From the NCBI RefSeq assembly GCF_018860165.1, contig NZ_JAHKNG010000009.1:1-64000 (forward strand): 64,000 nt of DNA. The letters are read 5' to 3'. The notes under the pieces were generated by a model, which saw nothing but the letters and a program-made list of their open reading frames with translations, did no database searches and was not told the DNA's origin. The DNA is from Paracoccus marinaquae (GTDB taxonomy: Bacteria; Pseudomonadota; Alphaproteobacteria; Rhodobacterales; Rhodobacteraceae). A program made the position numbers and the translations under genes. This document shows, one piece after another, positions 2,521 through 23,173 of this stretch (the first letter of the stretch is position 1; each line of letters begins with the position of its first letter).

Positions 2521-3834
2521 ATGCCGGTCACGCTGAACACATCCGATGCCGATTTCGAGGCCGGCTTTGCCGCCATGCTGTCGGCCAAGCGCGAGGATTC
2601 GACCGATGTGAACGAGGTCGTGGCCGGGATCATCGCCGATGTCCGGGCGCGTGGCGATGCCGCGCTGTGCGAGCTGACCGCGCGTTTCGACCGGCTGGAT
2701 CTGTCGCCGGACCGGCTGCGGTTCTCGGCGGACGAGATCGCGGCCGAGGTGGCGCGGGTTCCGGACGAGGATCGCGCCGCGCTGACGCTGGCGGCCGAAC
2801 GGATCCGCGCCTATCACGCCCGGCAGATGCCCGAGGATGCCAGCTGGACCGATCCCGAGGGCGCGACGCTTGGCTGGCGCTGGACGCCGGTTTCGGCGGC
2901 CGGGCTTTATGTGCCGGGCGGGCAGGCGGCCTATCCCTCCTCGGTGCTGATGAACGCCATTCCCGCCCGCGTGGCCGGGGTCGGGCGGCTGGTGATCTGC
3001 GTGCCGACGCCGGGCGGTGTGATCAATCCGCTGGTGTTGCTGGCCGCGCAACTGTCCGGCGTGGACGAGATCTATCGCATCGGCGGGGCGCAGGCAGTGG
3101 CCGCCATGGCCTATGGCACCGCCAGCATCGCGCCGGTGGACAAGATCACCGGGCCGGGCAATGCCTATGTCGCGGCGGCCAAGCGGCAGGTCTTCGGGCG
3201 CGTCGGCATCGACATGATCGCCGGGCCGTCGGAGGTTCTGGTGATCGCCGAGGGGGCACAGAACCCCGACTGGCTGGCCTGGGACCTGCTGGCGCAGGCC
3301 GAGCATGACGCCGACGCGCAGTCGATCCTGATCACCACCGATCCGGGGCTGGGCCATGCCGTGGCCGGCGCCGTCGATCGCATCCTGCCCAGGCTTCCCC
3401 GGGCCGCGATCGCCGGCGCCAGCTGGCGCGATTACGGCACCATCATCACCGCCCGCGATCTCGACGAGGCGGCGCGGCTCTCGAACCGCATCGCGCCCGA
3501 GCATCTTGAGCTTTGCGTCGATGATCCCGAGGCGCTGGCCGCGAAATGCGTGCATGCCGGGGCGATCTTCCTCGGCGCGCATACGCCCGAGGCGGTGGGC
3601 GACTATGTCAGCGGGCCGAACCATGTGCTGCCGACGGCGCGCTCGGCCCGGTTTTCCTCGGGGCTGTCGGTGATGGATTTCCTGAAGCGCACGACCATGG
3701 CACGGCTCAGCCCCGGCGCGCTGGCCGCCATCGGGCCGGCAGCGATCCGGCTGGCCGCATCCGAGGGCTTGCAGGCGCATGGCGCTTCGGTGCAGGCTCG
3801 GCTGGCACAGCTGAACGAAAGGATGGCTGAATGA
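2521..3834 (+). CDS. hisD: Histidinol dehydrogenase
   Basis: It oxidises L-histidinol to L-histidine in two NAD-dependent steps, the last reactions of histidine synthesis, in the cytoplasm. The 437-residue product has the expected order of motifs: AAGLYVPGGQAAYPSSVLMN (NAD/substrate site), KITGPGNAYVAAAK, the zinc ligands in LLAQAEHDADAQS, and the catalytic IAPEHLEL Glu-His pair. The start at 2521 is preceded by GGGGAAG and gives the usual family length; an upstream in-frame extension to 2314 lies inside the preceding gene and is rejected. Its TGA overlaps the ATG of the UPF0262 gene by four bases, so the two are translationally coupled. Confidence 0.96.
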   Translation: MPVTLNTSDADFEAGFAAMLSAKREDSTDVNEVVAGIIADVRARGDAALCELTARFDRLDLSPDRLRFSADEIAAEVARVPDEDRAALTLAAERIRAYHARQMPEDASWTDPEGATLGWRWTPVSAAGLYVPGGQAAYPSSVLMNAIPARVAGVGRLVICVPTPGGVINPLVLLAAQLSGVDEIYRIGGAQAVAAMAYGTASIAPVDKITGPGNAYVAAAKRQVFGRVGIDMIAGPSEVLVIAEGAQNPDWLAWDLLAQAEHDADAQSILITTDPGLGHAVAGAVDRILPRLPRAAIAGASWRDYGTIITARDLDEAARLSNRIAPEHLELCVDDPEALAAKCVHAGAIFLGAHTPEAVGDYVSGPNHVLPTARSARFSSGLSVMDFLKRTTMARLSPGALAAIGPAAIRLAASEGLQAHGASVQARLAQLNERMAE

Positions 3835-4310
3835 GCAGGCTGATCCGGATCGAGATCGATGATTCTGCCATTCCGCCCGCGACGCCGGAGATGGAGCAGG
3901 AGCGCCGGGTGGCGGTGTTCGATCTGATCGAGGATAACAGCTTTGCCGTGCCGGGGCGCGATGGCCAGCCAGCGCAGGACGGCCCCTTCGTGCTGGACCT
4001 CGCCGTTCGCGAGGGACGGCTGGTCTTCGACCTGAATACCGAAGCGGATGAAAAGGTGGCCGAGTTTCACCTGTCACTGGGGCCGTTCCGGCAGGTGGTG
4101 AAGGATTATTTCCAGATTTGCGAAAGCTATTTCGATGCGGTGAAGAAGCTGCCGCCGGCCCAGATCGAGGCCATCGACATGGCCCGCCGCGGTATCCACA
4201 ACGAGGGCGCCCGCACCCTGCAGGAGCGGTTGGAGGGCAAGGCCGATCTGGATATCGACACGGCGCGGCGGCTGTTCACGCTGATCTGCGCGCTGCTTCC
4301 GCAAGGGTAG
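3831..4310 (+). CDS. UPF0262 family protein
   Basis: The 159-residue protein starts MSRLIRIEIDDSAIP and contains LGPFRQVVKDYFQICESYFDAVK and MARRGIHNEGARTLQERL-type segments typical of UPF0262, a family restricted to Alphaproteobacteria. It has no signal or membrane helices. It overlaps the hisD stop by four bases and is followed four bases later by a phosphatase gene; the trio hisD-UPF0262-phosphatase is a conserved order in Rhodobacteraceae. The function is unknown; coupling to hisD suggests coexpression but does not prove a role in histidine synthesis. Confidence 0.9.
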   Translation: MSRLIRIEIDDSAIPPATPEMEQERRVAVFDLIEDNSFAVPGRDGQPAQDGPFVLDLAVREGRLVFDLNTEADEKVAEFHLSLGPFRQVVKDYFQICESYFDAVKKLPPAQIEAIDMARRGIHNEGARTLQERLEGKADLDIDTARRLFTLICALLPQG

Positions 4311-4314
4311 GGCG

Positions 4315-4782
4315 ATGCCGCAGGACAAGATCCCCCATTCGGTCCTGTTCTGCTGCGATCACAACGCAATCCGTTCGCCCATGGCCGAAGGCATGATGAA
4401 GAAATTCTTCGGCCGGTCCGCCTATGTGCAATCCGCCGGCGTCAAGAACGACATGGAGATCGACGGCTTTGCCGTCACCGTCTGCGATGAGATCGGGGTG
4501 CCATTGTCGAATCACCGTACCCGCAGCTTCGAGGAGATGCAGGACTGGGGCGACGATCTGGGCGGCTTCGACCTGATCGTGGCGCTGTCTCCGGCCAGCC
4601 AGCGTCTGGCGCTGGAACTGACGCGGCTCTACCATCTCGAGATCGAATACTGGCCGATCATGGACCCCTCCGGTCTGGCCGAGGGGCGCGAGGCCAAGCT
4701 GGCGATGTATCGCCAGACGCGGGATCAGATCCAGACCCGGATGATTGCGAGGTTCGGCGCGCCCCCCGAGGACGAGGGCTGA
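4315..4782 (+). CDS. Low-molecular-weight phosphatase family protein
   Basis: The 155-residue protein has the LMW-PTP fold signature at its N-terminus: CDHNAIRS, a C-X5-R-S loop with predicted nucleophile Cys14 and Arg20. The sequence WPIMDPSG near the C-terminus supplies the general-acid Asp-Pro of the family. The usual VCxGNxCRS loop is replaced by CCDHNAIRS, a variant typical of this alphaproteobacterial subgroup. The substrate may be phosphotyrosine or another phosphoester; arsenate reductase activity cannot be excluded. It lies last in the hisD-UPF0262 unit, four bases after the preceding stop, with AGGGTAGGG as ribosome site. Confidence 0.85.
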   Translation: MPQDKIPHSVLFCCDHNAIRSPMAEGMMKKFFGRSAYVQSAGVKNDMEIDGFAVTVCDEIGVPLSNHRTRSFEEMQDWGDDLGGFDLIVALSPASQRLALELTRLYHLEIEYWPIMDPSGLAEGREAKLAMYRQTRDQIQTRMIARFGAPPEDEG

Positions 4783-4828
4783 GAGGCGCGCCTGTGGGCG
4801 TGGGCCGGTGTCATCTGCGGGCCGCTGG

Positions 4829-5059
4829 TCAGCCGCGATACCAGTGCAGCGGCGCATCCCATGCGGGACGGCGCATTTCCTCATCGACCTCGGCGCGGGT
4901 CAGGCCGATATCCTGCAACTGGCTGTCGCTCAGCCGGTCGAGCGCGATGGTCTTCTGGCGGCGGTCGAACAGGGTCAGAAGCTGTTCCAGCCATGCCGGC
5001 CGCGGGATGATGCCACGTCCGGTGACGACGCGCAGCAGGGCGGTTGAACGTTGTGCCAT
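4829..5059 (-). CDS. DUF1127 domain-containing protein
   Basis: The 76-residue basic protein ends in the classic DUF1127 helix-turn, LDRLSDSQLQDIGLTRAEVDEE, followed by a Trp/Pro-rich tail (RRPAWDAP). Proteins of this size with DUF1127 (YjiS-like) act in RNA binding or in phosphate/carbon and stress adaptation in Rhodobacter and Agrobacterium; the function here is not established. The ribosome site GGAGGTG lies 7 bases before the start. It is transcribed divergently from a LysR gene across a 137-bp AT-richer region, which suggests control by that regulator. Confidence 0.85.
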   Translation of the reverse strand: MAQRSTALLRVVTGRGIIPRPAWLEQLLTLFDRRQKTIALDRLSDSQLQDIGLTRAEVDEEMRRPAWDAPLHWYRG

Positions 5060-5083
5060 AATACACCTCCGGCATCATGAATG

Positions 5084-5158
5084 ATCAAGGATTTTGATTT
5101 ATTCTGCCGTTCTGCAGCAGATGGTTGATGATTACGCCAGCATGTTGTATTTGTACAA
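5084..5158. promoter_or_regulatory. Candidate LysR operators between the DUF1127 and LysR genes
   Basis: Two palindromes lie in the divergent intergenic region. ATCAAggattTTGAT at 5084-5098 is close to the DUF1127 start. TTGTAtttgTACAA at 5145-5158 has the T-N11-A shape of LysR-type boxes and lies about 40 bp before the LysR start. The position fits autoregulation plus control of the divergent gene, the usual LysR arrangement. This is inferred from symmetry only. Confidence 0.45.
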
Positions 5159-5196
5159 TGAATGATTTTGATCTGATACATCACGAAGGTTGAACG

Positions 5197-6066
5197 ATGA
5201 GAAATCTGGATATCGCCACGCTGCGGTCGCTTCAGGCGGTCGCCGAATATGGTGCGGTGACCCGTGCGGCCGAGGCGCTGAACATGACCCAAAGCGCGCT
5301 GTCGATGCAGGTCAAGCGGCTGGAAGAGGTGTTCGACCGGCCGCTTCTGGAAAAGCAGGGCAGGGGGGTGATGCTGACCGATTTCGCCCATCTGCTGCTG
5401 ACCGAAAGTCGCAAGCTGGTGGCGCAGAACGACGCCATCATCGCCCGTTTCACCGGCGTCCAGCCCGATTGCCGGCTGCGTGTGGGGCTGACGACCGACT
5501 GGCCGACACTGCATTTCACCCAGGCCGTGCGGCGCTTTCGCGAGGCCCATCCCAATGTCGAGATGGTGCTGACCGACGGGGTCAGCGTCGATCTGCGCAA
5601 GCAGTTCGAGCGTGATGAACTGGACGTGATCCTGACCACCGAGGCAGCCTGCGGGCCGGATGGCACGACGCTGATGCATATCCCGCTGATCTGGGTCGGG
5701 GCGAATGCCGGGATGGCGTGGCAGCAGCGCCCCCTGCGGCTGACGAACGGGCTGTGGTGCGCCTTCCTGAAACTGGCGATCACCGCGCTGGACCGGGCGG
5801 GAATCGCCTGGGAACATGCCTCGGGCGTCGGCGGCTGCGAGCGTAATCACATGCTGACGGCGGCCGATCAGGGCGTGAACATCGTGCTGAAATCCTTCAC
5901 CCGCGAGGGGCTGGAAGAGATCGAGCATGGCGGCACGCTGCCGCCCCTGCCGCCCGCCAGCCTCAACATGTACCTGACCCGTGGCAAGGTCAGCGCCATG
6001 GCCGGCGAGTTCGGCGGCTACCTTCGCCGTGCGGTGCGCGAAGAGGCGGAAGAACGCGCGGCCTGA
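5197..6066 (+). CDS. LysR family transcriptional regulator
   Basis: The 289-residue protein begins with a LysR winged helix: LDIATLRSLQAVAEYGAVTRAAEALNMTQSALSMQVKRLE (residues 4-43, quoted as the family pattern), with the recognition helix around residues 31-45. A periplasmic-binding-protein-like effector domain (about 90-285) follows. The inducer is not predictable. GAAGG lies before the ATG. The gene is divergent from the DUF1127 gene, and palindromes between them are candidate operators. It ends immediately before the convergent edd stop, with no spacer. Confidence 0.93.
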   Translation: MRNLDIATLRSLQAVAEYGAVTRAAEALNMTQSALSMQVKRLEEVFDRPLLEKQGRGVMLTDFAHLLLTESRKLVAQNDAIIARFTGVQPDCRLRVGLTTDWPTLHFTQAVRRFREAHPNVEMVLTDGVSVDLRKQFERDELDVILTTEAACGPDGTTLMHIPLIWVGANAGMAWQQRPLRLTNGLWCAFLKLAITALDRAGIAWEHASGVGGCERNHMLTAADQGVNIVLKSFTREGLEEIEHGGTLPPLPPASLNMYLTRGKVSAMAGEFGGYLRRAVREEAEERAA

Positions 6067-7869
6067 TCAGACCACGCAGGCCGCCCCCTCGGTCGCGGGG
6101 CCGGCATGGGTGCGGAAGAAGGCGAACATCTCGCGCCCCATGCCCTCGCTGCTGGTCGATGGGTCGAAGGCGGCCGGGCGGCGGGTCTCGAAATCCTCGG
6201 CCAGGCAGTCGATCGTGCCCATCGTCGCATCCATGCGGATTAGGTCGCCGTCGCGGACCCGCGCCAGCGGCCCGCCGGTCGAGGCCTCCGGCGAGATGTG
6301 GATCGCCGCCGGCACCTTGCCGGATGCGCCCGACATGCGGCCATCGGTGACCAGCGCCACCTTCAACCCGCGATCCTGCAGCACCGCCAGCGTCGGCGTC
6401 AGCGAATGCAATTCGGGCATGCCGTTGGCGCGCGGTCCCTGAAAGCGGACGACGACGATGGTATCCTCGGTGAACTCGCCGGCCTTGAAGGCGGCCTTGA
6501 CCTGTTCCTGATCGGAAAAGACCCGGGCTCTGGCCTCGATCACATGGCGTTCCTCGGCCACGGCGCTGACCTTGATGACGCCCCGGCCCAGATTGCCCTC
6601 GAGCTGTTTCAGCCCGCCGGTCCTGGCGAAGGGATCGCTGGCCGGGCGCAGGATCTTGTCGTTCAGGGTGTCGCGGGCACCTTCCTCCCAGCGGACGCGG
6701 GCACCGTCCAGCTTCGGCTCGACGGTATAGCCGCCAAGGCCGGTGCCGTTGATGGTCCTGACATCCTCATGCAGCAACCCGGCCTCCAGCAACTGCCCGA
6801 TCATGTAGCCGATGCCGCCGGCGGCGTGGAAATGGTTCACATCGGCCAGCCCGTTCGGATAGACCCGCGCCATCAGCGGCACGGCCTCGGAAATATCGTG
6901 GAAATCCTCGATGTCGATCAGGACGCCCGCGGCCCGTGCCATGGCCGGGATGTGCATGACCAGATTGGTCGAGCCGCCCGTTGCCATCAGCCCGACCATG
7001 CCGTTGACAAAGGCTTTCTCGTCAAGGATCTCGCCCGCCGGCAGATAGTCGTTGCCCAGCCGGGTGATCGCGGCGGCGCGTTCCACCCCGGCCACGGTCA
7101 GCGCCTCGCGCAGCGGCGTGTTCGGGTTCACGAAGCTGGACCCCGGCAGGTGCAGCCCCATGAATTCCATCAGCATCTGGTTGGAATTGGCGGTGCCGTA
7201 GAAGGTGCAGGTGCCGGGCGAGTGATAGGAGGCCATCTCGGCCGCCATCAGCGCATCGCGCCCGACCTCACCCGCCGCGAATTGCTGGCGGACCTTCGAT
7301 TTCTCGTCATTCGGCAGGCCCGAGGGCATCGGCCCGGCGGGGATGAAGACCGCAGGGACATGGCCGAACGTGGCCGCGGCGATGACCAGTCCCGGCACGA
7401 TCTTGTCGCAGACGCCGAGGTAGAGTGCCGCGTCGAAACAGTCATGCGACAGGGCGACGCCCGCCGCCAGCGCGATCACGTCGCGCGAAAACAGCGACAG
7501 TTCCATCCCGGCGCGGCCCTGCGTGACCCCGTCGCACATGGCCGGAACGCCGCCCGCCACCTGCACCGTCGCCCCCGCCGCGTGACCCGCGCGGCGGATG
7601 AGGTCGGGGAAACGCTCATAGGGCTGATGCGCCGACAGCATGTCGTTATAGGCGGTGACGATGCCCAGATTGGGCTTGCGCGTCGTCGCCATGTCGTCCT
7701 TGTCCGCCATCGCCGCATAGGCATGGGCCTGGTTGCCGCAGCTGAGATGGGCACGGCGCGGCCCTTCCTCGGCGGCTTTGGCGATCTTGCCGAGATAGGC
7801 GCTGCGCACGGGTTCCGAGCGCTGGCGGATACGGTCGGTGACGCGGTCAATGGTGGCGTGAAGGGTCAT
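6067..7869 (-). CDS. edd: Phosphogluconate dehydratase (Entner-Doudoroff)
   Basis: It converts 6-phosphogluconate to 2-keto-3-deoxy-6-phosphogluconate; it is a [4Fe-4S] dehydratase of the IlvD/Edd family in the cytoplasm. The 600-residue product carries CGNQAHAYAAMADKDDM-like and VPAMCDGVTQGRAGMELS motifs, GVCDKIVPGL, FYGTANSNQMLMEFMGLHLPG and TDGRMSGASGKVPAAIH. Three conserved cysteines for the cluster are present. The start at 7869 is chosen because AGAGGAGG lies just upstream and the length matches the family; an upstream extension would run through the promoter. No eda gene follows, so the aldolase must be encoded elsewhere. Its promoter contains the same operator type as zwf. Confidence 0.96.
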   Translation of the reverse strand: MTLHATIDRVTDRIRQRSEPVRSAYLGKIAKAAEEGPRRAHLSCGNQAHAYAAMADKDDMATTRKPNLGIVTAYNDMLSAHQPYERFPDLIRRAGHAAGATVQVAGGVPAMCDGVTQGRAGMELSLFSRDVIALAAGVALSHDCFDAALYLGVCDKIVPGLVIAAATFGHVPAVFIPAGPMPSGLPNDEKSKVRQQFAAGEVGRDALMAAEMASYHSPGTCTFYGTANSNQMLMEFMGLHLPGSSFVNPNTPLREALTVAGVERAAAITRLGNDYLPAGEILDEKAFVNGMVGLMATGGSTNLVMHIPAMARAAGVLIDIEDFHDISEAVPLMARVYPNGLADVNHFHAAGGIGYMIGQLLEAGLLHEDVRTINGTGLGGYTVEPKLDGARVRWEEGARDTLNDKILRPASDPFARTGGLKQLEGNLGRGVIKVSAVAEERHVIEARARVFSDQEQVKAAFKAGEFTEDTIVVVRFQGPRANGMPELHSLTPTLAVLQDRGLKVALVTDGRMSGASGKVPAAIHISPEASTGGPLARVRDGDLIRMDATMGTIDCLAEDFETRRPAAFDPSTSSEGMGREMFAFFRTHAGPATEGAACVV

Positions 7870-7893
7870 GGTGCCTCCTCTGGCTTCGCCCGG

Positions 7894-7922
7894 ACTATAT
7901 ACTGTTAGCGATAACGTAGCAA
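7894..7922 (-). promoter_or_regulatory. edd promoter with embedded LacI-type operator
   Basis: Read on the minus strand, a -35 box TTGCTA (7922-7917) and a -10 box TATAGT (7899-7894) are separated by exactly 17 bases. The spacer holds the near-palindrome CGTTATCGCTAACA (7916-7903). It matches the element in the zwf promoter in sequence and in placement. A repressor bound there would block RNA polymerase. Confidence 0.65.
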
Positions 7923-8097
7923 CCTGTGCTGTGCGGGTTCGCAGGGACTTCGCGGCCCCCGGCATTTGTCCCGTCGATGCGCGCGGATTTCGCGTCTTCG
8001 GGGAACATGCGCGCAGAAAGGATGCGCCCGGGCGGGCGGCCTTGTCGCTTGTGCAGGTCGGGAACCCGTGTCAGATCGGCAGTGAAAGGAATCCTGC

Positions 8098-9294
8098 ATG
8101 ACCGAACTGCCCGTCATTCGCCTTCGTCCGAAATCGAAACCACAGGCGATCCGCCACGGCTTCCCTTGGGTCTTTGCCGATGAGGCGGTTCTGGATCGCC
8201 GGACCCGCGCGCTGCCGCCCGGTGGATTCGCCGTGCTTGAGGATGCGGACCGGCGGCCGATGGCGCTGGTCACGGTGAACGCCGCCTCGAAGATCGTCGC
8301 ACGGGTGATGGATGCCGATCCGGCGGCCCGAATCGACCGGGGCTGGCTGGGCGGGCGGATCAAGCGGGCGCTGGCATTGCGCGCCCGGCTCTACGACACC
8401 CCCTTCTACCGGCTGGTTCATGCCGAGGCCGACGGATTGCCCGGCCTGGTCATCGACCGTTTCGGAGAGGTGGCGGTGATCCAGCCCAATGCCGCCTGGG
8501 CCGATGCGATGGCGGCCGAGATCGCCGCCGCGCTGGCCGAGGTTGCGGGCCTGTCCACGGTGATCCTGAACGGGCAGGGGCGCGCGCGCGGGCTGGAGGG
8601 GCTGGACGAGCGGATGGAGGTGCTGCTTGGCCAGGCGCCCGAGGCGCCGCTGCCGGTGGCGATGAACGGCGCCACCTATCTGGCCGACCTGATGGGTGGG
8701 CAGAAGACCGGGCTGTTCTACGACCAGCGCCCGAATCACGCCTTCGCGCAGCGACTGGCGAAGGGAGCGGCGGTGCTGGACGTGTTCAGCCATGTCGGCG
8801 GCTTCGGCCTCGCCGCACTGGCCGCAGGCGCCGAGCGGGCGACCTGTGTCGATGGCAGCGCCGCGGCGCTGGAGCTTGCGGCGGGTGGCGCGCGGGCCAT
8901 GGGCATGGCCGAGCGGCTGGACTGCGTGCAATCCGATGCCTTCAAGGCGATGGAGCAGATGGCCGAAGACGGCCGGCGCTTTGATCTGGTGGTCTGCGAC
9001 CCGCCCGCCTTTGCACCCTCGAAACCCGCGCTGGAGGCGGGGTTGCGCGCCTATGAGAGGGTGGCGAAACTGGCCGCGCCGCTGGTGGCGCCGGGCGGTT
9101 TTCTGGTGCTGTGCAGTTGCAGCCATGCCGCCGATCTGGCCCAGTTCCGCAATGTCAGCGCCCGTGGCATCGGACGCGGCGGCCGACGCGGCGTGCTGAT
9201 CCACAGCGGTCAGACAGGCCCCGACCATCCGGTGCTGCCGCAACTGGCGGAGACCGGCTATCTCAAGGCGCTGTTCTTCCGGCTGGACGGATGA
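8098..9294 (+). CDS. Class I SAM-dependent rRNA methyltransferase (RlmI-like, PUA domain)
   Basis: The 398-residue protein has the architecture of the RlmI/RlmK 23S rRNA m5C methyltransferases. There is an N-terminal PUA domain (about 5-80, with IRHGFPWVFADEA), a linking EEHD-like domain containing HAEADGLPGLVIDRFG, then a Rossmann domain with VLDVFSHVGGFGLAAL (SAM motif I) and the catalytic VVCDPPAFAPSK. The C-terminal LCSCSHAAD supplies the second active-site cysteine region. The exact target base is inferred only from family membership. Its stop overlaps the ATG of the PIN gene by four bases, so the two form a coupled pair. Confidence 0.9.
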   Translation: MTELPVIRLRPKSKPQAIRHGFPWVFADEAVLDRRTRALPPGGFAVLEDADRRPMALVTVNAASKIVARVMDADPAARIDRGWLGGRIKRALALRARLYDTPFYRLVHAEADGLPGLVIDRFGEVAVIQPNAAWADAMAAEIAAALAEVAGLSTVILNGQGRARGLEGLDERMEVLLGQAPEAPLPVAMNGATYLADLMGGQKTGLFYDQRPNHAFAQRLAKGAAVLDVFSHVGGFGLAALAAGAERATCVDGSAAALELAAGGARAMGMAERLDCVQSDAFKAMEQMAEDGRRFDLVVCDPPAFAPSKPALEAGLRAYERVAKLAAPLVAPGGFLVLCSCSHAADLAQFRNVSARGIGRGGRRGVLIHSGQTGPDHPVLPQLAETGYLKALFFRLDG

Positions 9295-9830
9295 GGGCCG
9301 TCCTTGACGCGAATGTGCTGTTTCCGACGATCCTGCGCGAGATCCTGACGGATGTGGCGGCGGCGGGCCTGTATCAGCCGCTGTGGTCGGCGCGTATCCT
9401 TGCCGAATGGCGCCATGCCGCCGCCCGGCTTGGCCCCGAGCACGAGGCTGTCGCCGGGGCCGAGGCGGCGCTGCTGGTGAACCGGTTTCCCGGTGCAGCG
9501 ATGCCCGATGCGGGGATGCGGGCGATAGATCTGGACTTTCCCGATCCGGCCGATCGTCATGTGGTCGAGGCGGCACTGGCCGGCGGGGCCTCACTGGTCG
9601 TCACCGCGAATCTGCGCGATTTCCCCCAGTCCCTGATGCAGCGTCTTGGCCTGCGGGCGATCCATCCCGACGCCTTCCTGCTTGATCTGTACCGGCGCAC
9701 GCCGGATCCGGTGGCCCTTGCCGTGCAGGCCGCGCGCGACAAGGCGGCGCGGATCGGCGGCGAGATGACTGTGGCCGAAATGCTGAAACGCAGCCGGCTG
9801 CCGCGTCTGGCCCGCGCATTGAAAGCTTGA
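9291..9830 (+). CDS. PIN domain-containing protein (putative RNase)
   Basis: The 179-residue protein begins MRAVLDANVLFPTILREIL, the first PIN acidic motif (Asp6). Further acidic residues follow in FPDPADRHVVEAAL and the VVTANLRDFP motif, completing a metal site for single-stranded RNA cleavage. No antitoxin gene precedes it; instead it overlaps by four bases the end of an rRNA methyltransferase gene. A free-standing RNA-processing or degradation role is as likely as a toxin role. VapC toxins are usually about 130 residues, and the longer C-terminal helical part is typical of the COG2405/COG1569-like relatives. Confidence 0.8.
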   Translation: MRAVLDANVLFPTILREILTDVAAAGLYQPLWSARILAEWRHAAARLGPEHEAVAGAEAALLVNRFPGAAMPDAGMRAIDLDFPDPADRHVVEAALAGGASLVVTANLRDFPQSLMQRLGLRAIHPDAFLLDLYRRTPDPVALAVQAARDKAARIGGEMTVAEMLKRSRLPRLARALKA

Positions 9831-14336: not shown

Positions 14337-14598
14337 GGTTCAACCTCAACCGGATGTGTTCCATCGGAAATATCTCTATTCGCTATGAGCCGGTCAACCG
14401 CGAAATGGCCTGCCGGCGCAGGGGATGCTGGCGGGCGCAGGCTGTCGCGAGGGGCCGGGGCGAGGCGAATTGTGGCCCGCCGAAAGCCCCGGGACGGGGG
14501 CGGCGGATTTCCGTCTCGGCCCCTCATCTGCGCAGGACAGGATTTGCAACTTCAGCCGCTTGGTGATCTATTGCAGCGGCAATTTGAACAGCGCTGAC

Positions 14599-16500
14599 AT
14601 GACCGGCAGATCAACCTCTTCCATCCTTCTGAAGACACTGGCTGCGGTGCGGCTGCGCAAGGCTCAGGCGCTGTTCCTGTTCCTCGCCGCCGACCCCAAT
14701 GCCTTCCATCGCGCCGAGAAGGTGATCGACCTGTTCTGGCAGGAGACCGACCAGCAGCGCGCCGCTGCCTCGTACCGGCAGGTGATCCGGCATATCCGCC
14801 GCGACATGGAGGCGGATTGCGGCCTCAACCTGAAGACGGAAATCGGCCAGATCACGCTGGAAATCCTCGACAGGAAGACCCCGAAGGACGAGTTCCGCGA
14901 GACCATCCTGGCCGAACGCTGGGATGCCGCCGCGGCCGACAGGATGCGCGAATTCCTGAGCTATACGACACGGCTCGAAGGGATCAGCAACTCGTTCGAC
15001 AGCTGGCTGGTGATCACCCGGTCGGTTCTGCTGCGGACCATCCGCGAGGCTCTGGATGAACGGCTTGCGAATGTGCAGTCCGCCCGCTTCGACGAGTTGC
15101 GCCGGCCGGCCGAACTTGCCCTCGAACTCGAGCCGTCGAACGAAACCGCGGTCCGGATCCTGATGACGCTGGACTGGCGCGGGGGGCATTCGACCCGCGC
15201 GATCGAGCGGTATGACATGCTCTACCGCTATCTCGACGAAGAGTTCGATCAGGAACCGGAGGCGGAAACCATCGAGCTTCTGGCGGCCGTCAAGCTCAAC
15301 CCGGCGGGGAAATCGGCCCGCAACGATCTGACCAACCGCAGGCCCGAGGTCAGCATCTCGGTCAGCCTGCTGCCCTCGTCCGACGAAATCCCCGGCGAGA
15401 TGCGCGGCTTCGGCACGGTCCTGTTCGCCGACCTGCGCATGCGGATGGGGCGTTTCCGCGAATGGCGCGTCCTCGACGAGGACAGCACCGAATCCTGCAC
15501 CGTGAACGTCAAGCTGCGCCCCGTCTACGGGCTGGGACGGTATCAGCTTTATGTGGACGTGCAGCGGGTCGAGGACAGCCAGCTTCTGTGGTCCGAGGTC
15601 ATCGACAGCCCCGAGACCGACTGGGAGGCCAAGGCGCGTCTGCTGCTGGCCAATCTGGCAAACGCGCTGTCGGTGGTGGTGTCGGACCGGTCGCTGTCCG
15701 ATTCGGGGCTGGCGATCTATGACCGCTGGCTGAAGGCGCAGGCCCTGCTGGATTCCTGGTCGCCCGAGGCCGAACGCGCCGCGCTGTCCATGCTTGAGGA
15801 CATCATCGCCGACACGCCCAAATTCGGGCCGGCCCATGCCGAACTGGCCGGGGCGCTGAATGTCCGCCATGTGCTGCAACCCGGCAGCACCCAGACCGAA
15901 GAGGTCAAGCAGCGGGCGCTGCACCACGCGATCATGGCGGTGTCCATCGACCCTTTGGACACCCGGGCGCATCGTGTCGTCGCCTGGTGCTATTGCCACA
16001 AGCGCGAATTCGGGCTGGCGGAATTTCACTTCGAGCAGGCCCTGAACCTCAATCGCAGCAACCCGCTGACGCTGGCCTCGTCGGCCCTGGGCTTCGCCTT
16101 TGCCGGCAATCTCGACCGGGCGGCCGCGCTGGTCGCGGAAACCCGTCGCAATTCAGCGGTGATGGAGCCTTTTCACATCATCTATCTGGCCGCAGCCGAC
16201 TACCTTCTGGGAAACTATGCCTCGGCCGAAGAGCAATGCCGCCGCGGCACCGGGCTGATGCCAACCGTCGGCGGCTGGCACAGCCTGGCGTTGTGGAAAC
16301 TGGGACGGCAGGACGACTCAGTGCGGCGGCTGCAGTCCTATTTCGACGAGATTCGCCCGAAATGGCAGGGCGACGCAGTTCCGGGCGACGCCGAAATCAT
16401 CGACTGGTTCACATCCAGCTTTCCGCTGGGTGACGAAAAGGCGCTTGCGGACCTGCATCAGACCATCGCCAGCATCATGGCCGCGCGCGGCGCCGCCTAG
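14599..16500 (+). CDS. SARP-like transcriptional activator (winged helix, BTAD, TPR)
   Basis: The 633-residue protein matches the SARP/BTAD architecture. There is an OmpR-like winged helix (about 15-90, with RKAQALFLFLAADPN and a YRQVIRHIRRDM recognition region) and a bacterial transcriptional activation domain (about 100-250, with ELALELEPSNETAVRILMTL and AIERYDMLYRYLDEEF). A TolB-like middle (310-400) and TPR repeats (about 440-600) follow. No membrane helix or signal is visible. The in-frame sequence just upstream of the ATG (LVIYCSGNLNSAD) resembles the missing first strand of the domain, so a GTG at 14563 or TTG at 14560 may be the true start; neither has a clear ribosome site. It converges on, and overlaps by four bases (CTAG), the last gene of the YcaO-peroxidase unit, its probable target. 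Confidence 0.8.
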   Translation: MTGRSTSSILLKTLAAVRLRKAQALFLFLAADPNAFHRAEKVIDLFWQETDQQRAAASYRQVIRHIRRDMEADCGLNLKTEIGQITLEILDRKTPKDEFRETILAERWDAAAADRMREFLSYTTRLEGISNSFDSWLVITRSVLLRTIREALDERLANVQSARFDELRRPAELALELEPSNETAVRILMTLDWRGGHSTRAIERYDMLYRYLDEEFDQEPEAETIELLAAVKLNPAGKSARNDLTNRRPEVSISVSLLPSSDEIPGEMRGFGTVLFADLRMRMGRFREWRVLDEDSTESCTVNVKLRPVYGLGRYQLYVDVQRVEDSQLLWSEVIDSPETDWEAKARLLLANLANALSVVVSDRSLSDSGLAIYDRWLKAQALLDSWSPEAERAALSMLEDIIADTPKFGPAHAELAGALNVRHVLQPGSTQTEEVKQRALHHAIMAVSIDPLDTRAHRVVAWCYCHKREFGLAEFHFEQALNLNRSNPLTLASSALGFAFAGNLDRAAALVAETRRNSAVMEPFHIIYLAAADYLLGNYASAEEQCRRGTGLMPTVGGWHSLALWKLGRQDDSVRRLQSYFDEIRPKWQGDAVPGDAEIIDWFTSSFPLGDEKALADLHQTIASIMAARGAA

Positions 16501-17219
16501 CGGCACATGTTCGTCGCGTATATGCCGACCGAACGATAGAAGGCGCGCAGCGGGCTCTTCATGATCTCGTTCTTCACATCGTCTGCCGGGGCGCCGTTCG
16601 CGTCCCTGAAGATGCTGCGCTGCTGGACCGCGTCGATCACATGCGCTTCCAGCGCGTCCTGCAGCTGCTGCGTCCAGCCGGCCACGCCCTTGGCGGCGAA
16701 TTCGCGGGCGATCTCGACGATCTCGGCCTTCAGGCTGGCCAGCATCAGCGCCTTGTCCAGCTCGTAGGACAGCGGGGGCCGGAACCCTTCCGCCTGTCCC
16801 GTCGCCTGAAGCAGCGCGTCGGTGATTTCCAGCGTCTGGTCCGAGGGCACGACAAGGATACGCGAGTTCTTGTCGACCCCGTTATGGCAACGGTCGCGGG
16901 TTTCGAATTCGATCCGGACGTCGGTGCCCTCAAGGATGTTGTCGCGGTCGGAATCGCTGAGGACCGCGCCGCCATCCTGAACCGAGAAATCCTGTACCAT
17001 CAGCGCGTGCTTGATATGGTCCTGATAGCGGTCTAGCTCGTCCTCGCCCACGTTCTTTTCGCCGCGCTTGGACAGTTCGACCATCAGTTTGCCGATATAT
17101 TCGACATTCAGCGGCTGCCCGTCCGCGCCCTTGTCCCTGTCGATGCTGCCGTCGCCATGCAGGTAATATTCCGCCTGATCGACTTCGCTGCCGACGATCA
17201 CATATTTGCTGTCACTCAT
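16497..17219 (-). CDS. Uncharacterised 240-residue protein of the YcaO-peroxidase unit
   Basis: I do not recognise this family. The protein is acidic and soluble-looking, with no signal peptide or membrane segment. It starts MSDSKYVIVGSEVDQAEYYL, has a beta-rich central part (VRIEFETRDRCHNGVDKNSR, then ILVVPSDQTLEITDALL), a helical stretch (ALMLASLKAEIVEIAREFAAKG) and ends SVGIYATNMCR. Only two cysteines occur, one of them the penultimate residue, so a modified C-terminus is conceivable. It begins four bases after the peroxidase stop with its ribosome site AGAGAGG inside the end of the peroxidase gene, so it is tightly coupled to it. It could be a partner, substrate or carrier of the two enzymes. 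No function is assigned. Confidence 0.75.
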   Translation of the reverse strand: MSDSKYVIVGSEVDQAEYYLHGDGSIDRDKGADGQPLNVEYIGKLMVELSKRGEKNVGEDELDRYQDHIKHALMVQDFSVQDGGAVLSDSDRDNILEGTDVRIEFETRDRCHNGVDKNSRILVVPSDQTLEITDALLQATGQAEGFRPPLSYELDKALMLASLKAEIVEIAREFAAKGVAGWTQQLQDALEAHVIDAVQQRSIFRDANGAPADDVKNEIMKSPLRAFYRSVGIYATNMCR

Positions 17220-17223
17220 GAGA

Positions 17224-18654
17224 TTATACCTCTCTGACCAGTTCGATGAGTTTCATCATGGTTGCGGGACGCGGCAGGTTGCCGGCCCCCTCTTGCTCGG
17301 GTGCCAGAACCACCCGGTCGATCGTGCCGGTGATCGAGGCGCGCAGCAGGGCGCTGCCAAAGGGGCCAAGCCCGCCCTTCTGGCCGTAAAGCTGCGCCTC
17401 GATCATGATCATCTGGAACAGGGGGCCCCATTCGATCATGTCTGCCGTGACATCGACCGGCGAATCGGGGTGGCGGGCGCGGAACTCGGTGGCCAGGGCC
17501 AGCGGTGCCAGCCGGGTGGGCCAGGGCGCGGGCAAAAGCGCCAGCGCGGCCTCGATCTTGGCGTTGCCGGGTCGCAATGGCCGGGCCTCGGCGGCAGCCG
17601 AATTGTCCAGCGCGATCACCGCCGCGGCCGTGGTGGGTGCGCGCAATTCGGGCGCGACGCTGGCCGAGAGGCCGGTCATCGGCCCGCCCGGCTTCAGCCC
17701 GAAGAACAGCGGCCAGTCGATGTTCCAGTCGCTTTCCGCCTCGCTGACATCGAAGCCGGATTTCAGCAGATCGGCGAGGTTGTGCATCCCCTGCCGGCCC
17801 AGATCATAGGCGGCCAGCGGCATCGCGTGGAAGGCACGGAACAGGCCGTGCAGCAGCGTCACCTCGTCCAGACGCCATTCGGGGGGCAGATCGTCCTCGG
17901 CCATGGCGGCGATCTCGGGATGCAGGAAACGCGCCAGGATGTCGTCGCGGATGATCCCGTGCCAGACGCGCACGGAATGGGCGCGCGCCATCGCATAGGC
18001 CTCGAAAGGCTTGCGCCCCGAAGCAAGCAGCCTGCGCGCGCAGAGATTGTGGAACTGCATCCAGGCCACCGCAAGCTCGTGCAGCATCAGCGTGTCGCGG
18101 TTGCGTTCGTCGTAAAGCGCCCGGATCGGGCGGTTGTCGGCCTGCGACATCGGGTCGTGGCTGCCGCGATAGACCCGCGCCAGCCGGGCGCCCGGGGTCA
18201 GCCGGAACAGCATCGTGTCCGGATCATAGACATGCGACAGCATCATCGGCCCCGAGCCGTAGACGGTTTCCAGCGTCAGCGGATTGTCGATCAGGTTGTA
18301 CCGGCGTGGCCCGAGGACCGAGACGGCACCGATGACATTGCCGCGGGTCACATGCGGGACGCTGGACAGCGGCACGCTGCTGCCCATGTCATGCCCCATC
18401 AACTGGCCGAGATAGGTATAGCCCGACGGGATATGTGCGGTGGCCTGCAGAGATGTCTTCCGCCATGCATGGTTTGACCGCAGCAGGATTTCGGGCGGCA
18501 GCCGATCCCTGACCCCGGCGTCATCTGCCGCCGCCCCGGCTGCACGGGGCGTTGCGGCGCCGCGCGGGGCGGGTCGCGGCGCGGGACTGACCGGCACGGG
18601 GCCACAGCCGAACCGGCAATCCTGCAGGTCGTCGAAGTCCGGTTCCTCAGGCAT
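17224..18654 (-). CDS. Animal-type heme peroxidase family protein
   Basis: The 476-residue protein belongs to the animal heme peroxidase (peroxidase-cyclooxygenase) superfamily. The distal-histidine motif is LGQLMGHDMG (His88, Asp89). NPLTLETVYGSG is the conserved turn before the ADNRP segment. The helix LHELAVAWMQFHNLCARRLL (about 191-210) matches the family REHNRIA helix, and LFRAFHAMPLAAY carries the likely proximal His276. There is no signal peptide, so it is predicted to be cytoplasmic, unlike secreted haem peroxidases. The N-terminal 45 residues are Pro/Ala-rich. The start at 18654 has AGGAGG at the right distance; a longer upstream frame lies inside the ycaO gene. It is the second gene of the unit, 20 bases after the YcaO stop. 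Confidence 0.87.
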   Translation of the reverse strand: MPEEPDFDDLQDCRFGCGPVPVSPAPRPAPRGAATPRAAGAAADDAGVRDRLPPEILLRSNHAWRKTSLQATAHIPSGYTYLGQLMGHDMGSSVPLSSVPHVTRGNVIGAVSVLGPRRYNLIDNPLTLETVYGSGPMMLSHVYDPDTMLFRLTPGARLARVYRGSHDPMSQADNRPIRALYDERNRDTLMLHELAVAWMQFHNLCARRLLASGRKPFEAYAMARAHSVRVWHGIIRDDILARFLHPEIAAMAEDDLPPEWRLDEVTLLHGLFRAFHAMPLAAYDLGRQGMHNLADLLKSGFDVSEAESDWNIDWPLFFGLKPGGPMTGLSASVAPELRAPTTAAAVIALDNSAAAEARPLRPGNAKIEAALALLPAPWPTRLAPLALATEFRARHPDSPVDVTADMIEWGPLFQMIMIEAQLYGQKGGLGPFGSALLRASITGTIDRVVLAPEQEGAGNLPRPATMMKLIELVREV

Positions 18655-18674
18655 GCTGGTCCTCCTATGCGCCC

Positions 18675-19568
18675 CTAGATGAAGGGCGTGCTGCTTTGGG
18701 CGCCGGGTTGAGTGTGCGGCAGAAGTGGCCTGCACATCCAGACATTTATTGGCCCGTCCGGTGGGGTTATGCTGCGAATCTCGATCTCTGAGCCGAACCA
18801 GTCGCGGGTATTCTGAAAGTCGGTCTGGTGCTGAGCGGCGGCAGGCGACGGACCTTCGCCCGCCGGCAGCAGATGCGGGCAGTTGCGGGCATAGGTGGCA
18901 ATCTTCTCGCGCAGCGCGCCGAGGGAATCGCTCAGCCCGACCGTGCGGCTGGCAAGAAGCTCCATCAGGTTCATCTCCATCAGGAACAGCTCGCGCAGGG
19001 CCTTGCGAGCGGCGGAAACCGGGTCGGGATCGGCTCCGAAGCCCAGCAGCATGTCCTGTCCTTCGGGGCTCATGCTGCGGCAGATCATGACCTGCGGGCA
19101 ACCGGGCGCGGTGTCGACCTGCCACCAGTCGGTGCGCCGCTTCAGGGCCGCGCCCTGCCGCGCCTCATGAAGGAAACCGGTCAGTCCCGCCTCGTCAAGC
19201 CAAGCTTCGGGCAGGGCCAGCGCGGGCAGCCGGCCGTGCCACCAGGACATCACCGCGTAACGCTCGAACGCCTCCAGAATGGCACCGTCGCGCGCCCGGT
19301 CGGCTTCGACATGCGCGGCCAGCCCGATCCGGGCGGTGTCGACGGCCTGTCCGCCCTGCCCAAGCGCCGCAAGAGCATGCAGTTCCGCCGTCTCGCCGAG
19401 GCAGCGCTGAAACGCGGTTTCGCGGTCGCGGCCGGCGCCGCTGGCGGTCTTGCCGGCAGAGGTCAGGGCCTGCAGAATGAAAATCTTCGGAGCAAAAAAA
19501 CTTTCACGCCAGTCATATCTCTGCCAATACGCCAGCAGATCATTTGGCTCGCGCTGTAATTCGTTCAT
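18675..19568 (-). CDS. YcaO-domain protein (putative ATP-dependent cyclodehydratase/thioamidase type)
   Basis: The 297-residue protein carries the YcaO ATP-binding pattern. SAGKTASGAGRDRETAFQRC leads into GETAE (Glu59, Glu62). DGAILEAFERYAVMSWW (Glu99, Glu102, Arg103) corresponds to the AllExxERdA motif of azoline-forming YcaO proteins. LGFGADPDPVSAARKALREL (about 175-194) matches the GfGahxdpexAxxRAltE motif. It is shorter than most YcaO enzymes (about 400 residues) and no E1-like or TfuA partner gene is adjacent. YcaO enzymes phosphorylate the peptide backbone to form azolines, thioamides or amidines; the substrate here is unknown. It is the first gene of the minus-strand unit with the heme peroxidase and the 240-residue protein. 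Confidence 0.83.
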   Translation of the reverse strand: MNELQREPNDLLAYWQRYDWRESFFAPKIFILQALTSAGKTASGAGRDRETAFQRCLGETAELHALAALGQGGQAVDTARIGLAAHVEADRARDGAILEAFERYAVMSWWHGRLPALALPEAWLDEAGLTGFLHEARQGAALKRRTDWWQVDTAPGCPQVMICRSMSPEGQDMLLGFGADPDPVSAARKALRELFLMEMNLMELLASRTVGLSDSLGALREKIATYARNCPHLLPAGEGPSPAAAQHQTDFQNTRDWFGSEIEIRSITPPDGPINVWMCRPLLPHTQPGAQSSTPFI

Positions 19569-19611
19569 GGCACGCCCGCGGTGAAAATGTCGTGAGACGC
19601 TAGCAAGCCGA

Positions 19612-19629
19612 TGTGATTTTTCTGTGATC
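19612..19629. promoter_or_regulatory. Two heptameric direct repeats upstream of the YcaO gene (candidate SARP site)
   Basis: TGTGATT (19612-19618) and TGTGATC (19623-19629) are direct repeats with a 4-base spacer, that is, an 11-base period. Known SARP regulators bind heptamer direct repeats with 4-base spacing. They lie about 45-60 bases before the ycaO start, and a SARP-like gene is in the same locus. Only two copies are present, so chance remains possible. Confidence 0.35.
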
Positions 19630-22549: not shown

Positions 22550-23173
22550 GTGCAGTTTGACGAAAGCGAGATCGAGCGGCTGCTGACGCTGATGCGCTGG
22601 CGGCGCGACGTGCGGCATTTCCGCACCGACCCGGTGCCCGAGACGGCCATCGCGCGGCTGCGCGAGGCGATGACGCTGGCGCCCTCGGTCGGCAATGCGC
22701 GGCCCTGGCGGGTGATCCGGGTCGAGGATCCGGCGATCCGCGCCGCCGTGCGTGAAGATTTCGCCCGCTGCAATGCCGAGGCTGCCCGGCGTTATCAGGG
22801 CGGTCAGCGCGATGCCTATGCGGCGCTGAAACTGGCCGGGCTTGAGGCGGCGCCGGTGCAGCTGGCGGTGTTCTGCGAGGGTGAGCCCGTGCAGGGCCAC
22901 GGGCTTGGCCGGCAGACCATGCCCGAGACGCTGGCGCAATCGGCGGCGATGGCGGTCTTTGCCATGTGGCTGGCGGCGCGGGCGCAGAATCTGGGGTTGG
23001 GCATGGTCTCGATCCTCGATCCGGCGCGGATCGAGGCGCTGCTGGAGGTGCCGCCCGACTGGCGCTTTGTCGCCTGGCTGTGCATCGGCTGGCCGGAATT
23101 TCAGGACGACACGCCGCTGCTGCATCGCAGCGGCTGGCAGGAAAACGACGAAAGCGGCTGGCAGACGCGCTGA
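22550..23173 (+). CDS. bluB: 5,6-dimethylbenzimidazole synthase
   Basis: BluB cleaves FMNH2 with oxygen to make DMB, the lower ligand of vitamin B12. The 207-residue nitroreductase-fold protein contains MRWRRDVRHFRTDPVP, MTLAPSVGNARPWRVIRV (flavin site, SVGxxQPWR-like), the QTMPETLAQSAAMAV helix and LGLGMVSILDP, all BluB-specific. The start is GTG at 22550 behind GGAGAGCGGGC; no in-frame ATG lies before the upstream stop. The cobalamin genes are not adjacent. Its neighbour nadC, which lies next to it in the opposite direction, probably has no regulatory link. Confidence 0.93.
   Translation: MQFDESEIERLLTLMRWRRDVRHFRTDPVPETAIARLREAMTLAPSVGNARPWRVIRVEDPAIRAAVREDFARCNAEAARRYQGGQRDAYAALKLAGLEAAPVQLAVFCEGEPVQGHGLGRQTMPETLAQSAAMAVFAMWLAARAQNLGLGMVSILDPARIEALLEVPPDWRFVAWLCIGWPEFQDDTPLLHRSGWQENDESGWQTR

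Follow-up and report, generated by a model that had tools for sequence, protein, structure and literature searches.

A four-gene YcaO and haem peroxidase cassette of scattered alphaproteobacteria points to an undescribed chemical finishing of a protein tail

A 64,000-nucleotide stretch of the Paracoccus marinaquae genome (contig NZ_JAHKNG010000009.1, positions 1 to 64,000; hereafter the window) carries a four-gene cassette, found also in scattered alphaproteobacteria, that points to an undescribed chemical finishing of a protein tail. The genes encode a short YcaO-domain protein (Y), a haem peroxidase (X), a protein of no known family (U) and a SARP-like regulator (S). YcaO enzymes rank among the principal tools for chemistry on peptide backbones, with a flavin enzyme as the usual oxidative partner. 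The co-occurrence of the four genes, their order, the retained active-site residues and a frozen tail at the C-terminus of U can all be read from the sequence. On these features we think it reasonably probable that Y and X act jointly to modify the tail of U at its Cys and Tyr, and that the genes would form a dedicated protein-maturation cassette.

The coordinates are given in Table 1. As a preliminary description of the window had it, the three minus-strand genes are tightly packed (re-derived gaps of 20 bases between Y and X and of 4 bases between X and U) and S converges on U with a 3′ overlap of 4 bases. The start codon of S is an ATG at 14599; that description had begun the locus slightly upstream, at 14563.

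Table 1. The cassette genes and the conserved tail, in window coordinates
Feature	Position	Strand	Basis
Y, short YcaO-domain protein, 297 aa	18675..19568	-	Pfam YcaO match, YcaO fold, residues aligned to E. coli YcaO
X, animal-type haem peroxidase, 476 aa	17224..18654	-	Alignment; relatives match An_peroxidase
U, 240 aa, matching no known family; candidate substrate	16497..17219	-	Found together with X, Y and S
Conserved C-terminus of U, RSVGIYATNMCR; candidate core for modification, with Tyr234 and Cys239	16500..16535	-	Best-conserved region of U
S, SARP-like regulator with BTAD and TPR, 633 aa, converging on U	14599..16500	+	BTAD match; relatives beside X and Y

Co-occurrence of the four genes

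Among 148 related genomes, U was present in 11. Strong matches to X were found in exactly these 11 genomes, with weak ones in two others, and matches to Y in the same 11 plus one weak match in one other. For S, the E values were 9.7e-91 or better in the U-bearing genomes and 1.4e-14 or worse elsewhere. Since the same 11 of the 148 genomes carry all four genes, their grouping is not due to chance. At nine of the ten loci outside the window, U, X, Y and S lie on a single fetched stretch with their order kept; at the tenth (G084), the end of a contig falls between X and Y. The pairwise distances of the four proteins across the 11 loci agree closely (r 0.93–0.97, with none of 2000 permutations as high for any of the six pairs), an agreement to which shared species history contributes part. 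At one of these loci (G058, L080:8056-10987), the U gene is broken into two frames and the S gene into three, either because the copy has decayed or through errors of assembly.

When 248 genomes of the family were searched with a profile of U, five more genera were added, and all five have the four genes in the same order. The spread is nevertheless sparse, at 6 of the 247 genera in that survey with the window's own genus counted, and across 289 genomes of the class the profile found no member beyond the window's own genome. All four genes are also present on a plasmid of Phaeobacter inhibens. A plasmid of Paracoccus SMMA_5_TC carries Y, X and U together; no S match was found in that stretch, and an S-like gene lies elsewhere on the plasmid.

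X and Y reach further than U. Profiles of the two enzymes over the 289 genomes of the class matched 12 and 14 genomes, respectively, with both in five, the window's included; the four others compare with 0.5 expected (P 7e-4). In these four (G428, G431, G565 and G608), X and Y lie within 5 kb of each other each time, and three also have a relative of S (E 8.6e-78 to 7.6e-92). Searches of plasmids with two distant peroxidases matched 36 and 33 records, and two of the six regions opened (Mesorhizobium huakuii and Paroceanicella profunda) hold X, a small protein, an S relative and a YcaO. A locus of strain QY30 (L151) was added by a search with S. This gave six distant alphaproteobacterial cassette loci (L133, L134, L135, L145, L146 and L151). 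Their YcaOs are 360–465 aa long, apart from that of L133, which runs off its contig. The preliminary description would have judged a joint system unlikely had the genes never been found together in other genomes; they co-occur widely, with their order kept (one locus deviates).

The sparse distribution and the presence on plasmids would suit genes that are merely neighbours on a mobile accessory island, with no joint function. However, the content and mostly the order of the cassette are kept over large divergence where hardly any flanking gene is common to the loci, and the tail that the U-like proteins have in common links them with X and Y. We therefore give the island explanation very little credence.

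Y is the sole YcaO match in the window's own genome. Some related genomes hold a second one: besides the short cassette YcaO, Paracoccus G059 has a 796-aa frame (L081:4539-6929) that carries a YcaO domain at its C-terminus and lies ∼0.9 kb upstream of S, and in G565 a second match to the Y profile is found at the edge of contig C49 (L137:1-1046), where any partner genes would lie beyond the contig.

The C-terminal tail of U

U gave no significant match in Pfam, NCBIfam, PHROGs or the PDB sequences and belongs to no known family. A reading of the locus as a defence system was dropped, as U, X, Y and S had no PADLOC match. When U was aligned with 11 relatives, which are 30–69 percent identical to it, the C-terminus followed the consensus R-[SA]-V-G-I-Y-x-T-x-[MA]-C-x-stop, with R229, V231, G232, I233, Y234, T236 and C239 invariant in all 12 sequences. 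The stretch 228–239 is the best conserved of the 229 possible (0.81, against a mean column value of 0.40 and a best value elsewhere of 0.73).

The same ending recurs at the distant loci. At all six, the open reading frame (ORF) directly downstream of X on the same strand encodes a protein of 130–183 aa that ends in aromatic-x4-Cys-x(1-2)-stop, the aromatic residue being Tyr in five and Phe in one. The tails are ...RVGDYTVANCA, ...RFADYTLSHCGP and ...RVGDYTIAQCG (L133–L135), ...RLGDYVMSRCK and ...RLGDYVLQHCD (L145 and L146) and ...LIATFAFTRCR (L151). The Cys is penultimate in 12 of 12 window-type sequences; in all six distant counterparts it lies within the final three residues. A Cys followed by one or two final residues ends only 11 of 640 other gene-like ORFs of the examined loci, a count from which 18 further such ORFs, being U or its counterparts, were set aside. 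The conservation does not result from the overlap with S, because the tail persists at loci where the two genes are free of overlap (e.g. L099, L103, L133, L145 and L146).

The rest of the protein behaves differently. The bodies of the L133–L135 and L151 counterparts had no match to the U profile, and a comparison of profiles of window-type U and five distant counterparts (L151 left out) gave a weak co-linear stretch with a probability of 2.7 percent and E 0.017. By these searches, the bodies of the distant counterparts have no detectable relation to U; common ancestry of the bodies is possible. The counterpart in L151 has a weak EF-hand match.

U looks like a substrate on this evidence: its tail is the best-conserved region and the distant partners of the two enzymes share the ending. 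From the position of the penultimate Cys in a C-terminal segment, we infer that the tail may be a core of the type seen in ribosomally synthesized and post-translationally modified peptides (RiPPs). A RiPP-like or protein-modifying pathway had already been suggested from the gene content, with no mention of the tail; the frozen, Cys-containing tail strengthens that proposal, of which the chemistry itself is still a prediction from sequence.

U could instead be an accessory or scaffold protein whose tail docks into X or Y, with the true substrate elsewhere in the cell. Its large body, which has a second conserved stretch (GFRPPLSYELDK) and is unlike a plain leader, would fit such a role. However, the tail keeps its Cys and its aromatic residue in proteins whose remaining sequence has no detectable similarity, and its extreme C-terminal position is typical of a core. 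We consider a scaffold role improbable.

By eye, the distant counterparts resemble nitrile-hydratase-like leader peptides (NHLPs), and no library model matches them. Neither U nor its counterparts had an NHLP or nitrile hydratase match in NCBIfam, Pfam or the PDB sequences; this library test may be too weak, because an NHLP-looking protein of another locus (L136, described below) matched nothing either. Comparison of the U model with known folds by Foldseek and VIA gave poor matches (best Z 5.5), and the absence of a good match carries no weight.

The two enzymes, the regulator and the flanking genes

Y matched the Pfam YcaO profile at 5.6e-16 (59.2 bits, cut-off 25.7), covering only positions 118–273 of 325. 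It has no extra Pfam domain, and so no fused E1-like C protein. Its predicted structure (predicted local distance difference test (pLDDT) 67.4, predicted template modelling score (pTM) 0.74) has the YcaO fold. Foldseek ranked MusD and LynD first (E from 2e-7) and the solved YcaOs gave Z scores of 13–17; in the VIA comparison, MusD reached Z 16.9 (root-mean-square deviation 3.6, 259 residues aligned), with McbD, LynD and archaeal YcaO tied. The preliminary description had made the joint system depend on the ATP-binding residues of Y. In the alignment, E75, E78, E199, E202 and R203 of E. coli YcaO correspond to E59, E62, E99, E102 and R103 of the window protein, so that all five are kept. These five bind ATP/Mg in the E. 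coli enzyme, and E202 is a tested mutant in PMC13063428. Other positions of that enzyme (S184, N187, E191 and R286) are not kept in window Y.

The family assignment of X, described earlier as an animal-type peroxidase without a signal peptide, holds through its relatives; the window protein itself falls below the Pfam cut-off (An_peroxidase, 11.4 bits, E 0.11), and inspection by eye found no signal peptide. Nine of the 12 rows of the X alignment match An_peroxidase at E 0.1 or better (best 4.5e-8), the window row not among them, and all six distant counterparts pass the Pfam cut-off. His88, Arg184 and His202 are invariant in the 12 window-type rows, and the same motifs are found in five of the six distant rows. 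We presume, by analogy with myeloperoxidase, that these are the distal His, the Arg and the proximal His, respectively. A search of the window's own genome for An_peroxidase returned no match in the controls either and is hence uninformative.

In a tree of 31 peroxidases, a branch with support of 99/94 parts the cassette enzymes from 12 solitary ones; long branches blur the details, and the six distant cassette peroxidases do not form one group. The solitary peroxidases at L086, L087 and L138–L144 had no Y or S match and no ORF with a Tyr-x4-Cys tail in the fetched stretches, which include short contigs. Among 87 genomes related to G565, a search gave matches in four others, and the one of these looked at (G124:C8) had no Y or S match. 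The solitary side of the tree also holds two ungrouped rows. One is from a Spirosoma plasmid (L149:5755-9154), where a haem peroxidase is followed by a YegP-family protein and a ThiF-family (E1-like) adenylyltransferase, as annotated. The other is from L136 (7575-11078), where a YcaO adjoins a haem peroxidase that groups with the solitary enzymes and a divergent 136-aa protein ending in LIRSCASC lies beside the YcaO; this is possibly a separate YcaO–peroxidase precursor system.

S matched BTAD at 1.8e-6 (28.8 bits, cut-off 22.1) and also TPR; its N-terminus resembles a winged helix by eye, with no Pfam match there. Across 200 genomes of the phylum, a profile of S matched 30, the window's included. 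Eleven of these loci were opened and three have a YcaO beside S; none of the 11 has a convincing X, the one weak X match (E 6.4e-5) being to a 970-aa edge frame in L170. At the three loci (L168:6996-11455, L169:5797-9604 and L170:5249-9520), relatives of S stand beside a full-length YcaO with no convincing peroxidase, and Pfam confirmed TfuA in L168 and L170. Several YcaO pathways may be marked by regulators of the S family. Away from the cassette, the window's own genome holds another, weaker match to the S profile (E 5.7e-21; G000:C92:25304-25915).

The genes around the cassette offer few candidate partners. Most of the 12 flanking ORFs in the window are housekeeping genes (glucose metabolism, TrmO, GNAT, PhaC, NadA and others), and one matches nothing. 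The lack of an E1-like or TfuA partner, pointed out in the preliminary description, was borne out: none occurs among these 12 ORFs, none is annotated in L097, L098, L145 or L146, and none was seen to be common to the loci. When the ORFs of 17 cassette loci were clustered, the 25 largest flank clusters held no E1-like, TfuA or protease family. Frames inside the four genes aside, one family was found in three loci (L078, L081 and L135) and is ABC-transporter-like by eye; L145 has a DMT-family transporter gene directly upstream of X. A dedicated export route for the product is unlikely.

Proposed chemistry and comparison with known systems

Beyond the observations themselves, we infer that the tail is the substrate, as well as the ring chemistry, the order of the steps, the role of S and the fate of the product. 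U, or its distant counterpart, would act as a carrier, offering roughly its final 12 residues to the two enzymes. With ATP, Y would activate the peptide carbonyl directly before the penultimate Cys and most likely close a thiazoline. X, with peroxide, would then oxidize the tail, converting thiazoline to thiazole in place of the usual flavin dehydrogenase; alternatively, it may oxidize the aromatic residue five positions before the Cys. S would switch the operon on as an activator. The product is probably protein-bound or intracellular, because no dedicated exporter or protease was seen in common among the loci.

A more far-reaching version, which we put forward only tentatively, is that a YcaO ring at the penultimate Cys and a peroxidase-oxidized Tyr five residues earlier would together form a new protein-derived cofactor or reactive tail on U. 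It is part of this same, rather doubtful claim that the attached redox or metal-binding group would be permanent at the C-terminus of U, and, speculatively, that carriers without a detectable common body may have kept or acquired the tail motif.

Several observations weigh against joint modification of the tail by Y and X. In the class sample, 9 of the 14 Y-bearing genomes had no X match and 7 of the 12 X-bearing genomes had no Y match, and no YcaO was annotated in four of the six opened plasmid regions with X-like matches. The L151 locus (QY30 plasmid, 3378-9343) has the order Y-S-X-U, a peroxidase without the proximal His and Phe rather than Tyr in the tail. The structure model of U is of low quality (pLDDT 61.6), and the helix that it shows for the tail has low confidence. 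Pfam found no leader-recognition domain on Y, in a search not aimed at such domains. A flavin oxidant is conceivable, given an ordinary nitroreductase-family gene at 22550-23173, some 3 kb away from Y; this superfamily includes the azoline dehydrogenases known from thiazole/oxazole-modified microcin (TOMM) pathways. This gene family was absent from the 25 largest shared clusters of the cassette loci.

The remaining points concern the YcaO itself. Window Y is not of the canonical full-length E. coli type: its middle region is incomplete, the segment from motif 1 to motif 2 being ∼85 residues shorter than in E. coli YcaO, and the motif-3 Gln is replaced by Leu in the short form. The YcaO of L099 has Gln at the E202 position. 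Because of these losses, some short YcaOs could be weak or inactive. Taken to its limit, the short YcaO would be a catalytically dead binding partner and the peroxidase alone would act, for example by oxidative joining of Tyr and Cys in the tail. However, window Y keeps the five ATP-site residues, and the YcaOs of L134, L135 and L145 cover nearly the full length of the Pfam profile (119–149 bits). We regard a dead YcaO as quite unlikely.

A further alternative is that the YcaO makes a different modification of the tail backbone, for example a thioamide, and that the peroxidase acts separately on Tyr or sulfur. Archaeal YcaOs, which we take to be thioamide enzymes, tie with the azoline-type ones within 1 Z unit in the VIA comparison with Y, and a regulator related to S stands beside YcaO–TfuA pairs in L168 and L170. 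Moreover, the stand-alone E. coli YcaO thioamidates folded uL16 without TfuA (PMC13063428). However, the invariant Cys would be needed for an azoline and not for a thioamide, the cassette has no TfuA or sulfur carrier, and the top Foldseek structures for Y are azoline-type enzymes. We judge this alternative unlikely.

The cassette resembles TOMM systems (LynD, McbD, TruD and MusD) in the YcaO fold and ATP-site residues of Y, in a Cys in the C-terminal segment of a protein encoded beside the enzyme, and in an oxidizing partner enzyme. Unlike these, it has no E1-like C protein or flavin dehydrogenase and a haem peroxidase instead; its candidate substrates are of 130–244 aa with one Cys in a near-invariant tail rather than a variable core rich in Cys, Ser and Thr; and no transporter or protease was seen to be shared and dedicated. 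An unlinked E1-like partner encoded elsewhere is possible. Stand-alone YcaO pathways such as that of bottromycin also lack an E1-like partner (PMC4603692).

The E. coli YcaO–uL16 pair likewise has a stand-alone YcaO that acts without TfuA on a folded, conserved protein. Its target, however, is a housekeeping protein modified in a loop, no peroxidase is mentioned in the available portion of the source (PMC13063428), and the enzyme has 586 aa against the 297 of Y. The proteobacterial YcaO–TfuA thioamide clusters share with the cassette a YcaO beside an S-related regulator (L168, L169 and L170), but have TfuA (L168 and L170) and no convincing peroxidase; some Sinorhizobium YcaO–TfuA clusters contain a haem-oxygenase-like protein and not a peroxidase, in the accessible sections of PMC8120280. 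In NHLP pathways (MprC/MprE) the YcaO also recognizes a folded leader protein, as described in PMC12455567, whereas no NHLP model of the scanned libraries matched U or its counterparts, in a search of possibly low sensitivity, and the tail of these proteins is a single conserved motif. X has the distal His, Arg and proximal His motifs of the peroxidase-cyclooxygenase superfamily and, unlike the solitary members sampled, adjoins a YcaO gene and is separated from them in the tree.

No YcaO–haem peroxidase pathway was found in the literature searched, which consisted partly of titles and abstracts and had most subscription papers outside it, so that a description elsewhere is possible. The word ‘peroxidase’ was not found in the accessible portions of PMC4603692, PMC8442711 and PMC8120280. 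The proposed tail modification is directly testable on the tryptic tail peptide of U, SVGIYATNMCR. If true, such a conserved partnership of YcaO and haem peroxidase, working on a large carrier protein, would add a new branch to YcaO chemistry. It would also reveal the function of some stand-alone YcaOs and assign a role to one branch of the bacterial animal-type peroxidases.

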